Source of the DNA: an uncultured Bacteroidota bacterium
GTDB taxonomy: Bacteria > Bacteroidota > Bacteroidia > Flavobacteriales > Flavobacteriaceae
DNA length: 35,859 nt
NCBI GenBank assembly: GCA_902593075.1
Contig: CACJHA010000012.1
Coordinates: 1 to 35,859, forward strand
Direction of reading: 5' to 3'
Below are positions 1,346 through 18,375 of the stretch, piece after piece; positions within the stretch are counted from its first letter, which is position 1; each line of letters opens with the position of its first letter. Both the position numbers and the translations under genes were made by a program. The notes under the pieces were generated by a model that saw only the letters and a program-made list of their open reading frames with translations, searched no databases and had not been told where the DNA came from.

Positions 1346-1351
1346 ATTATA

Positions 1352-1376
1352 AACGCCATTTTAAATGGCGTTTTTT
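1352..1376 (+). terminator. Rho-independent terminator of dnaK
   Basis: AACGCCATTT at 1352-1361 pairs with AAATGGCGTT at 1363-1372. The practical structure is a 7-8 bp stem with a short AT loop, followed by a run of T at 1371-1376. It begins 6 bases after the dnaK stop codon. It is the only clear intrinsic terminator I found in the window. Confidence 0.88.
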
Positions 1377-1448: not shown

Positions 1449-2795
1449 ATGAAAAGTGTAATTATTTGCGACATGGAGGGTGTTATTCAAGAAATAAATA
1501 AAGGAGCGCTTGATATGTTTGGGTATTCAAAAAATGAACTAGTTGGCATAAAAAGGGTTTCAATTTTTTCAGAAGCAGATATAGTTATTCAAAATGTTTT
1601 GGGTTGGTTAGATGAGGCTAATAAAAAAGGTAAGTCAATAGTTAAAACTAGGTTTAAAAGAAAGGACGGTTCTTTATTTAATGCTGAAATTTTAATAACT
1701 CCAAATTATGCAAATGGAAAAGATAAGGGACAAACTGGTTACTGTGGTATAACAAAAGAAATAAATGAAAAAGTACAAATACCAATTAAACTTTCAACAA
1801 AGTTTATTAGAGGAATTGCTATAACGAGGGGGGGTTTTACTTTGGCTTCAATTTTACCTATGGTGGTTGTTTCTTATTTTTTGTCTTCTTCTGGTAATTT
1901 AAATTTTCTAAATTCAATTTTATCAATCACTGGAGTTTTTTTTCTTCACCTATTTTCAAATTTGTATAACGATTATTTTGATGTTAAGCACGGGACAGAC
2001 GAAGCAAATAGTGAATATTTCAATGTCGGTGATAAATCTTTAGTTTTAAGGGGTGCCCAAATATCAGGAGGAAGTAGGGCAATAGAATTAGGTCTGATAA
2101 CATTAAAAAACACCAGCATACTTGCTAATATTATGCTGTTTATTTCTTTGATTTTTTTAATAATGGTTTGTTATAACAGTTATTTAGTTACAAGTTCATT
2201 CGCAAATATAAAAGCAATGGGATTGATTGCTTTAACAGCTACATTATTTGGTTATTTTTATACGGCCAAACCTATTAGACTATGTGCTAGAAAAGGATTA
2301 GGAGAATTAACTATTTTTTTATGTTTTGGACCTCTCTTGACCATCGGAAGTGCTATTGCAATGTCTACAAATACCATAAATTTAGATTATGAAAATCTAA
2401 GAGATTTTATCTTAATTGGATTACCACTGGGTCTATTAACAACAAATATTTTATTTATTAATCAATTCCCAGATTATAATTCTGATAAGATAACTGGAAA
2501 AATAAATCTGGTTGTCTTGTTAGGCAAAAAGTTATCAAGATGGATATTTTTGTTAAATATTGCATTAACAATCCTTCTTTCATATTTTCTTAAGGATGTA
2601 ATTTCATCAAAAGTTTTAAATTTTAATGAAATTGTTTACTCTATAATTATTTCAATTTTAGCATTATATGGACTTTTTATTTCGTTAGGTTTATTTAAAA
2701 ACTACGATAAGAGATCTCTTGTTTACTATAATATCCAAACCATATACTTTCAAATCTTTTTCTGTTTTGGAATAATTATTAGTTTTTACTTTTAA
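1449..2795 (+). CDS. PAS domain fused to MenA-like UbiA prenyltransferase
   Basis: A 448-residue two-part protein. Residues about 1-106 look like a PAS sensor domain: MEGVIQEINKGALDMFGYS, then NELVG, then FKRKDGSLFNAEI and GYCGITKEI. Residues about 118-448 are an integral membrane UbiA-family prenyltransferase with roughly eight or nine hydrophobic segments. Both Asp-rich motifs are intact: NDYFDVKHGTD (174-184) and DYNSD (342-346). GGSRAIELGLI (207-217) resembles MenA, which transfers a polyprenyl chain to 1,4-dihydroxy-2-naphthoate in menaquinone synthesis. The start is firm because an in-frame stop lies two codons upstream. The usual MenA is about 300 residues with no sensor domain, so the fusion is notable. 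The prenyl acceptor is inferred; another UbiA substrate is possible. Confidence 0.85.
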   Translation: MKSVIICDMEGVIQEINKGALDMFGYSKNELVGIKRVSIFSEADIVIQNVLGWLDEANKKGKSIVKTRFKRKDGSLFNAEILITPNYANGKDKGQTGYCGITKEINEKVQIPIKLSTKFIRGIAITRGGFTLASILPMVVVSYFLSSSGNLNFLNSILSITGVFFLHLFSNLYNDYFDVKHGTDEANSEYFNVGDKSLVLRGAQISGGSRAIELGLITLKNTSILANIMLFISLIFLIMVCYNSYLVTSSFANIKAMGLIALTATLFGYFYTAKPIRLCARKGLGELTIFLCFGPLLTIGSAIAMSTNTINLDYENLRDFILIGLPLGLLTTNILFINQFPDYNSDKITGKINLVVLLGKKLSRWIFLLNIALTILLSYFLKDVISSKVLNFNEIVYSIIISILALYGLFISLGLFKNYDKRSLVYYNIQTIYFQIFFCFGIIISFYF

Positions 2796-2816: not shown

Positions 2817-3722
2817 ATGGAAGTTAAAAAGAACAGTTTTCTAGAAGATTTTAGTAAAGAAAAAAAGTCTTTACGGTTTTATCTTCTTGGATCATTAATA
2901 GTTTTAATTTTTTCAATTATTGGTCAAACCCCAATGTTTTTTTTTCTACCCAATGAAATGAATACTTATTCAGAAGGATTTGATATTTTTTCTTCTCTTG
3001 ATAAAAACTTATTGTTTTTTTTATTGCTATTACCTTCTGTTTTTTCTTTTTTAGGATTATGGTTTGTTTTAAAACAAATCCACTTTAGATCATTAATTTC
3101 AATAATAACTTCAAGAGAAAAAATTGACTTTAAAAGATTTAAATTTGCATTTATTCTCTGGTCCGTAATAAGCATATCTATTTTCTCTTTTGAAATTTTA
3201 CTTAATCCAACTGACTATCAATTGAATTTTAATTACTCAAAATTTCTTATTCTCTTTTTAATTTCAATAATAATGATTCCAGTTCAATCAGTATTAGAAG
3301 AATTAATTTTTAGGGGATATTTAATGCAGGGGTTTAGTGTTTTTTTTAAAAATAGGATAATGCCACTTTTAACTACTTCAATAATATTTGGTTTTCTCCA
3401 TATACTTAATCCAGAAATTCAAAAGATTGGATATGGATTATTGATTTATTATGTTGGAACTGGTTTATTTTTTGGAATTGTAACTCTAATGGATGAAGGA
3501 GTCGAATTGTCTTCTGGGTTTCATGTATCAAACAATCTTGTAGCCTCCCTTTTAGTTACTGCTGATTGGACTGCATTTGAGACATATTCAGTTTTTAAAT
3601 TTATTGGAAACCCTTATTTCAGCAAAGAAGTTTTATTATATGTTTTTATAATTTATCCTTTAATAATTTTTTTCCTTTCCAAAAAATATAAATGGCCCAG
3701 CTGGAAAACAAAAATTCTTTAG
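2817..3722 (+). CDS. CPBP family intramembrane metalloprotease (CAAX protease-like)
   Basis: A 301-residue membrane protein with about seven hydrophobic segments and the three signatures of the CPBP/Abi family: EELIFRG with E161, E162 and R166; FGFLH with H195; and HVSNN with H236 and N240. In Rce1-type enzymes these residues form the catalytic site within the membrane. Bacterial members cleave membrane proteins or act in bacteriocin immunity, but the substrate here cannot be read from sequence. It starts 21 bases after the PAS-prenyltransferase gene with no terminator between, so the two are probably cotranscribed. The family call is firm; the role is unknown. Confidence 0.88.
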   Translation: MEVKKNSFLEDFSKEKKSLRFYLLGSLIVLIFSIIGQTPMFFFLPNEMNTYSEGFDIFSSLDKNLLFFLLLLPSVFSFLGLWFVLKQIHFRSLISIITSREKIDFKRFKFAFILWSVISISIFSFEILLNPTDYQLNFNYSKFLILFLISIIMIPVQSVLEELIFRGYLMQGFSVFFKNRIMPLLTTSIIFGFLHILNPEIQKIGYGLLIYYVGTGLFFGIVTLMDEGVELSSGFHVSNNLVASLLVTADWTAFETYSVFKFIGNPYFSKEVLLYVFIIYPLIIFFLSKKYKWPSWKTKIL

Positions 3723-17337: not shown

Positions 17338-18375
17338 ATGAATTTAAATCCTGAAATTTATCCTAATTTGCTCAAGCTTATAGGAGAAACTCCTCTAATT
17401 AAATTAAATAAAATTGCATCAAATTATAAAGGAACTTATTTTGCAAAATGGGAAGCATTCAATCCTGGACATTCAAATAAAGATAGAATTGCATTACATA
17501 TTATCGAGGATTTAGAGAAACAGGGCAAAATCGTTAAAGAATCTACAATAATCGAGACCACCTCTGGTAATACAGGTTTTAGTTTAGCAATGGTAGCAAT
17601 AATTAAAGGTTATAAGTGTGTTTTAGCAGTAAACTCAAAATGTTCAAATGACAAAATTAATATGTTAAGAGCGCTAGGTGCAGAAGTATATGTGTGTCCA
17701 GCAAATGTTAAAGCTGGTGACCCAAGGTCTTATCATCAGGTTGCAAAAAAATTATTAAATGAGACTAAAAATTCTATTTATATAAATCAATATTTCAATG
17801 AATTAAATGTACAAGCTCATTATAAAACCACAGGCCCTGAGATTTGGAAGCAGACTAAGGGCAAAATAACTCATCTGGTAGCGTGCAGTGGTACTGGTGG
17901 TACTATTTCGGGTTGTGCAAAATATTTAAAAAAAATGAATCCTACTGTAAAAATAATTGGTGTTGATGCATACGGTTCTGTTTTAAAAAAATATCATGAA
18001 ACTAACGAACTAGATCCTAATGAAATATACCCATATAGAATTGAAGGATTAGGGAAAAATCATATACCCAGTACAACCAATTTTGAGTTGATCGATGAAT
18101 TTATAAAAGTAACTGACGAAAAAAGCGCTTATATGGCTAGAAAAATCACAAAGGAAGAAGGGATATTTGTAGGTTACACTTCTGGTGCTGCCTTTGAGGC
18201 AATAAGATTATTAAATAAGAAAAATAAATTTTCTAAAGAAAGTTGTGTGGTTGTAATTTTTCCAGATCATGGTTCAAGATATCTTAGTAAAATTTATAGT
18301 GAAAAATGGATGTTAGAACAAGGATTTAATCAGTATGGTCTATTTGAAAACCAGTCTAAAGTTGAATATATATAA
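17338..18375 (+). CDS. Cysteine synthase/CBS-like PLP enzyme, probable cysteate synthase
   Basis: A 345-residue beta-family PLP enzyme. [13 protein letters not shown] opens the fold; the Schiff-base lysine is K48 in [14 protein letters not shown] (N78) binds the cofactor ring region; SGTGGT (184-189) holds its phosphate. By sequence alone it could be cysteine synthase or cystathionine beta-synthase without the regulatory domain. It lies 24 bases upstream of an AONS-family acyltransferase. In Flavobacteriia such a pair makes L-cysteate (from a serine-type substrate and sulfite) and then condenses it with a fatty acyl group to start capnine/sulfonolipid synthesis. I infer that role from context and recall. 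The family is firm; the substrate is not proven. Confidence 0.85.

Follow-up and report, generated by a model that had tools for sequence, protein, structure and literature searches.

We report here a gene in which a PAS domain is fused, in a single reading frame, to a MenA-type UbiA membrane prenyltransferase (positions 1449..2795, + strand). It lies in a 35,859-nucleotide stretch of an uncultured flavobacterial genome (contig CACJHA010000012.1), referred to below as the window. The architecture is shared by 48 other proteins from Flavobacteriales, Saprospiraceae, Kapaibacteriaceae, and a Marinoscillum genome, and key enzymes of the two known menaquinone pathways were not found in the carrier genomes searched. 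Our preferred reading, to which we assign a probability of roughly 40%, is that the fusion serves as the prenyltransferase in a quinone route distinct from both the Men and the futalosine pathways, that this divergent PAS-MenA replaced the resident MenA, and that the PAS domain acts as a redox gate.

The open reading frame encodes one 448-amino-acid protein plus stop, with an ATG start and no internal stops; in-frame stops are seen directly upstream of the ATG, as the first-pass annotation of this DNA had noted. The PAS domain (residues 1 to 106; 1449..1766, + strand) is matched by Pfam PAS_9 over residues 3 to 105 (33.7 bits; cutoff, 27), by the Pfam PAS model (23.2 bits; cutoff, 22.6), and by NCBIfam sensory_box (42.9; cutoff, 22.9). 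The UbiA-type membrane prenyltransferase domain (residues 113 to 448; 1785..2792, + strand) is matched by Pfam UbiA (PF01040) over residues 136 to 423 (87.3 bits; curated cutoff, 34.2). An AlphaFold2 model built with a 35-sequence alignment (pLDDT, 84.1; pTM, 0.80) shows the strands and helices of a PAS fold, from a strand at residues 3 to 8 through one at residues 97 to 104, followed by a helical domain. Using VIA-align, residues 1 to 108 were aligned with the PAS domain 3lyx_A (Z, 16.9; 105 residues aligned; 1.6 Å) and residues 115 to 448 with UBIAD1 8djk_B (Z, 24.5; 269 residues aligned; 3.0 Å). The PAS part of the model also aligns with Aer 8dik_B (Z, 15.6) and NifL 2gj3_B (Z, 15.2), and the UbiA part with 4od4_A (Z, 24.3). 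A repeat protein, 7rdr, came first among the PDB matches of the PAS profile and was taken as spurious. The unbroken run from a PAS fold into a UbiA-type enzyme that the annotation had proposed is thus borne out by the frame, by both Pfam cutoffs, and by the modeled PAS fold. That an assembly or frame error joined a PAS gene to a UbiA gene is scarcely credible: the window does come from a draft genome that is 65% complete, but the same architecture recurs in many independent assemblies, down to 43% identity and including the one-contig genome G188, and the PAS part has a dN/dS of 0.02 to 0.09.

The distribution of the fusion was surveyed in several genome sets. A search of the window's own genome and its relatives, 99 in all, found the full-length fusion in 9, the window's own included; it was not seen in G003 and G006, which belong to the same genus as the window and are 67 and 87% complete, respectively. 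A genome collection yielded 69 loci, of which 40 (L032 to L071) encode PAS plus UbiA, a few being clipped at contig ends; L072 holds the UbiA end only, and the remaining 28 hold UbiA alone, PAS alone, or a fragment. In a sample of 395 Bacteroidota genomes, with at most four candidates scored per genome, the fusion is present in 12, in one of them (G241) as a piece covering residues 2 to 191. Nine of these 12 belong to family f39, which is identified by tree and gene order as Kapaibacteriaceae, the family of L070. The f39 carriers have near-complete genomes of 2.2 to 3.3 Mb; small genomes are common among carriers. The search across Bacteroidota that the first-pass annotation had recommended therefore returned a recurring architecture. 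Among the open-access papers searched, none was found to describe a PAS-UbiA fusion, and none to cover menaquinone in Kapabacteria.

Conservation was assessed in an alignment of 50 full-length or nearly full-length rows, which represent 49 different proteins, the window's own appearing twice. Both Asp-rich motifs, described earlier as intact, are present: N174, D175, D178, G182, and D184 in the first (NDYFDVKHGTD, residues 174 to 184; 1968..2000, + strand) and D342 and D346 in the second (residues 342 to 346; 2472..2486, + strand) are invariant in all 50 rows. The same is true of GGSR at residues 207 to 210 (2067..2078, + strand) and of K351. The two motifs, the Pfam score, and the helical fold place the protein in the UbiA superfamily. 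It scores below the cutoffs of the MenA equivalog models (TIGR00751, 56.9 versus 102.15; TIGR02235, 81.9 versus 225; NF004751, 72 versus 264); an ordinary flavobacterial MenA scores 261.5 with TIGR00751. In all five fusion proteins tested, the top-scoring NCBIfam models are MenA models, and no MqnP model is among the 14 NCBIfam matches of the fusion protein. In a tree of 81 rows, the fusion UbiA domains form one clade with support of 100/100, and six flavobacterial MenA rows sit beyond a long branch from it; long branches meet outside the fusion clade, as the tool warned. This distance suggests that a different, already fused protein replaced the local MenA, rather than that a PAS domain was added to it. 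The substrate prenylated would be 1,4-dihydroxy-2-naphthoate (DHNA) or a close relative. In Thiothrix (L093, 4148-5738), a UbiD-like gene was seen by eye directly upstream, on the opposite strand, of the PAS-free MenA-like UbiA relative.

In the window, a terminator-like hairpin (1351..1373, + strand; consensus scan only) lies after dnaK and before the fusion gene, and the next gene, 21 bases downstream of the fusion, encodes a CPBP (Rce1-like) intramembrane protease (2817..3722, + strand; Pfam Rce1-like, 53.5 bits). Scans of the window for Rfam families and tRNAs gave no hits. Elsewhere in the window, 17338-18375 encodes a protein just below the cutoff for CapA (589.1 versus 600 bits), the cysteate synthase of sulfonolipid synthesis.

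The usual gene order in Flavobacteriales is dnaK, a MenI-like thioesterase, the fusion, the CPBP protease, and then, in one group, a MenE-like gene. Across 42 sources (the window plus 41 loci, some clipped at contig ends), CPBP lies near the fusion in 37, the thioesterase in 29, and MenE in 11; thioesterase and MenE are absent at the locus in the window and in four close relatives (L032, L033, L034, and L053). The men operon of ordinary relatives contains the same thioesterase, MenF, MenD, MenB, MenA, MenC, CPBP, and MenE. In L145, MenD (353 bits), MenB (463), MenA (261.5), and MenF (242.9) score over their cutoffs, and the MenC, MenE, and MenI of intact operons fall below equivalog cutoffs (L145 genes and the L146 MenE were typed). 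Fusion-lineage neighbors share 58 to 61% (thioesterase/MenI), 42 to 59% (CPBP), and 39 to 49% (MenE) identity with their intact-operon homologues. The first-pass annotation had advised looking for another menA beside men genes; at the fusion loci of Flavobacteriales, the usual menA is missing, as are menF, menD, menB, and menC. We read this locus, from its gene content, as a relic of the menaquinone operon. The MenE-like genes downstream of the fusion (L035 to L041, L049, L057, L063, and L071) have lost the TSGSTG P-loop in 9 of 11 copies, which may be either decaying or given a new role, and the relic operon may therefore simply be decaying. The LHGGA...E stretch is kept in all 29 fusion-lineage thioesterases. 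In the Marinoscillum record (L064), the thioesterase again adjoins the fusion in an otherwise different neighborhood, and in the stretches analyzed from the loci of families f39, f29, and f6, the Flavobacteriales MenI, CPBP, and MenE gave no homologous hit.

The two known menaquinone pathways were traced by MenB (called at an E value of 1e-90) and MqnC (1e-60), present in 289 and 49 of the 395 Bacteroidota genomes, respectively. A comparison of the genome lists by eye shows no overlap between MenB and MqnC and finds neither in the fusion genomes (0/12 for each). The one-sided Fisher p value for this absence is 2.8e-11, inflated by kinship; it overstates the case because nine of the 12 fusion genomes belong to f39. 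Contrasts within families make the better argument. In f29, the fusion occurs without MqnC in G225 and G365, and MqnC without the fusion in G134, G207, and G353. In f1, the family of the window, MenB is found in 39 of the 41 genomes sampled; the two without it are G000 and G370, the latter also having no MqnC and no fusion. Neither MenB nor MqnC is present in 57 of the 395 genomes, 12 with the fusion and 45 without, so the fusion is not the sole way to live without both pathways. Some of these 45 may be DHNA auxotrophs such as oral Porphyromonas. A second set comprised 45 genomes, 41 of them fusion handles (two of the set, G058 and G114, look like one genome). MenD, MenB, and MqnC were over cutoff in none of the 41; MenD and MenB were over cutoff in the noncarrier G068 alone, and MqnC in none of the 45.

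Two kinds of weaker match in carriers were set aside. MenD-like matches of about 569 amino acids, at first reminiscent of a diverged MenD lying a fixed distance from the fusion, were taken as acetolactate synthase, L126 showing the order IlvD-IlvB-IlvN-IlvC (by eye, one locus). MenB matches of 260 amino acids, far below the cutoff, were taken as ordinary crotonases. The first-pass annotation had suggested that the PAS domain could let redox state, oxygen, or a small ligand set the rate of menaquinone production. The description of the protein as a MenA-type UbiA with a PAS domain stands, but the MenA cutoffs are missed, and regulation of menaquinone synthesis cannot be assumed because the classical feeding pathway (MenD and MenB searched) was not found in carriers.

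The carriers still seem to use a quinone. UbiE/MenG scores above 150 bits in 29 of 38 fusion handles, with a fragment in G109 (of the f39 and f29 sample genomes, this count covers G129 alone). SdhC of the b558 type, from a quinone-reactive succinate dehydrogenase, is over cutoff in 41 of 49 fusion handles, including 12 of the 12 rated high quality, and heme O synthase was typed in two carriers (L101 and L115). The window's own 65% complete genome yields no UbiE above 150 bits, no SdhC b558, no heme O synthase, and no second UbiA; many marine carrier genomes are incomplete, and genome sampling is clustered. A third UbiA gene (287 to 306 amino acids, ten carriers) was considered as a hidden second MenA and rejected, the typed copies being other UbiA types. 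The L152 and L153 copies belong to the geranylgeranylglycerol-phosphate type, those of L154, L155, L156, L163, and L164 resemble L153, and the L157 copy belongs to the phosphoribosyl type; this typing leaves out G116 and G119, as well as further extra UbiA genes, such as those in G128.

These observations bear on a reading in which the enzyme prenylates a compound other than a quinone and the quinone is imported whole or made by unrecognized enzymes. We consider it improbable. It would account for the failure of every MenA equivalog model to reach its cutoff and for the nearest UbiA relatives outside the clade being proteins of putative function. However, MenA models give the best NCBIfam matches in the five proteins tested, the Flavobacteriales fusion sits beside MenI and CPBP, and the other UbiA proteins typed in carriers are heme O synthase, lipid type, or phosphoribosyl type.

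In the route that we favor, a polyprenyl tail would be joined to an aromatic acid, DHNA or something close to it, by a membrane enzyme of the MenA kind, and UbiE/MenG would then methylate the prenylated product. In the Flavobacteriales fusion lineages, the divergent PAS-MenA would have displaced the resident MenA in the operon, the early Men genes would have vanished, and the head group would be supplied by a further, putative gene set, for which no candidate gene was found. Because the Men and futalosine enzymes were not found, the naphthoate-like acid would come either from an unrecognized route or from outside.

The latter source defines the main competitor: carriers may be auxotrophs that import DHNA or a similar compound from neighbors and complete menaquinone by means of PAS-MenA and UbiE, with the PAS domain matching prenylation to supply or redox state. 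We regard this salvage as a serious possibility, if short of an even chance, and it explains the gene losses about equally well. A MenA-type gene and mostly UbiE are kept and MenD and MenB are not found, which is the pattern given for Porphyromonas pasteri in the accessible part of a published report (PMC9704088), and small genomes are frequent among the carriers. The f39 carriers, however, are near-complete at 2.2 to 3.3 Mb, MenI, unneeded for free DHNA, retains its active-site stretch, and a single divergent PAS-fused clade, common to several families, has taken the place of the resident MenA. Such a replacement is expected if the substrate changed and less so if DHNA is only imported. We lean slightly, and weakly, toward an unrecognized route because an enzyme that is divergent and common to other families now stands in for the resident MenA and because the thioesterase is intact.

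Homogentisate, as in a plastoquinone-type route, was considered as a common precursor. A homogentisate dioxygenase-like gene was seen by eye near the Kapaibacterium fusion. HPPD is over cutoff in 16 of the 46 fusion handles scored, a set in which G129 and G263 seem to be a single genome; it is over in all nine f39 genomes and below in both f29 genomes. With HPPD in only 16 of the 46, homogentisate was ruled out as the general source; it is a possible source for f39 alone. The methyl-plastoquinone (mPQ) route of Nitrospirota, which uses MpqE and other mpq genes, was considered through the UbiE of one carrier (L168): it scores 210.6 with the MpqE model (cutoff, 335) and 254.4 with MenG/UbiE (cutoff, 158.35).

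In textbook cases, PAS domains regulate kinases, cyclases, or transcription factors. The PAS domain of the fusion contains two cysteines, C7 in strand A (residues 3 to 8; 1467..1469, + strand) and C99 in strand I (residues 97 to 104; 1743..1745, + strand), that are invariant in all 50 rows of the alignment (49 different proteins), as are many other PAS residues. Over the first 33 of 35 rows, pairwise identity averages 72% in PAS and 59% in the whole UbiA domain; UbiA subregions match the conservation of PAS, with 77% around motif 1 and 69% at residues 265 to 360. Among five members of the window's genus, dN/dS is 0.02 to 0.09 in PAS and 0.08 to 0.14 in UbiA, with the PAS value the lower in 10 of 10 pairs. 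Purifying selection thus acts more strongly on PAS than on the enzyme taken in its entirety. The LOV flavin-binding cysteine motif is GxNCRFLQ; direct reading of the sequence finds no cysteine between residues 8 and 98, in agreement with the earlier remark that a LOV-type cysteine is absent. Strands A and I adjoin in PAS folds, so C7 and C99 may be close in space.

Under our preferred reading, the PAS domain would gate the enzyme, the likeliest signal being the redox state of the quinone pool or of the cytosol, sensed through C7 and C99. Control by redox state or a ligand, as first suggested, is made plausible by the purifying selection on PAS and by the two invariant cysteines, and the gating itself we infer. 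The cysteines could also be structural. It is rather unlikely, in our judgment, that the PAS domain is no sensor but a fixed structural part, such as a module for dimerization or for docking MenI or the aromatic substrate close to the active site, a proposal that concerns the PAS part alone and is compatible with any reading of the enzyme. The domain is present in all aligned full-length members and conserved above the enzyme as a whole, which is unexpected for a sensor module, and MenI is often the neighboring gene (29 of 42 sources). Its fold and length, on the other hand, match ligand-binding PAS domains such as those of NifL and Aer, and two invariant cysteines among many other invariant residues suggest a chemical role. 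The fullest form of our proposal we put forward only tentatively, with the odds against it: PAS-UbiA would mark, and carry out the prenylation in, a third bacterial route to a membrane quinone, so far undescribed and spread among Bacteroidota (marine flavobacteria, Saprospiraceae, and Kapaibacteriaceae), with feedback from the quinone pool through a PAS cysteine switch.

A PAS domain on the quinone prenylation step would mean direct protein-level control of a respiratory electron carrier. More importantly, the fusion provides a sequence handle on lineages that apparently use a quinone without either known menaquinone pathway. According to the accessible part of a 2026 survey of 26,264 genomes, no quinone pathway is present in many lineages, most of those named being Bacillota and Chloroflexota, and the survey suggests that further quinones await discovery (PMC13386864). 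The fusion makes this a concrete matter of the kind of quinone in the carriers and the origin of its ring. The pathway to which the fusion points could be new.

Among known systems, MenA (TIGR00751, NF00475x, and TIGR02235) shares with the fusion the UbiA fold, the NDxxDxxxGxD and DxxxD motifs, the best NCBIfam match, and the operon neighbors MenI, CPBP, and (at 11 loci) MenE. The fusion differs in its N-terminal PAS domain, its scores below cutoff, its separate clade, and the genomes around it, in which no MenD or MenB was found. Asgard archaeal UbiA proteins (L073, L074, L080, L089, and L091) likewise place an extra domain of about 130 amino acids before a MenA-like UbiA, but that domain is not PAS, and the proteins are archaeal and form a separate branch. 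These Heimdallarchaeota/Asgard genes are open frames of 450 to 472 amino acids (for example, L073, 5551-6936, and L089, 5620-6969). In the two scanned, PNPOx_N reaches 24.0 bits in L089, below its cutoff of 28.1, and is not detected in L073. P. pasteri, of the same phylum, is without five men genes, retains the last two steps, and requires DHNA; like the carriers, it has lost early men genes and kept the MenA-type and UbiE steps, and neither a PAS fusion nor a MenA replacement is among what the accessible part of that report describes (PMC9704088).

The nearest mechanistic parallel for the fusion PAS is that of the histidine kinases EvgS and ArcB, whose cytosolic PAS cysteines, according to the accessible part of the source, report the redox state of quinones (PMC8174306). 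Both PAS types contain two cysteines, which in EvgS and ArcB are tied to quinone redox state. C683 of EvgS and C99 of the fusion both lie in strand I, each followed by a glycine (the EvgS glycine being read from a primer given in that paper), although the register may differ by one residue, and the second cysteine is in strand H in EvgS and in strand A in the fusion (PMC8174306). The PAS domains of EvgS and ArcB gate kinases, whereas that of the fusion sits on an enzyme of quinone synthesis (PMC8174306).
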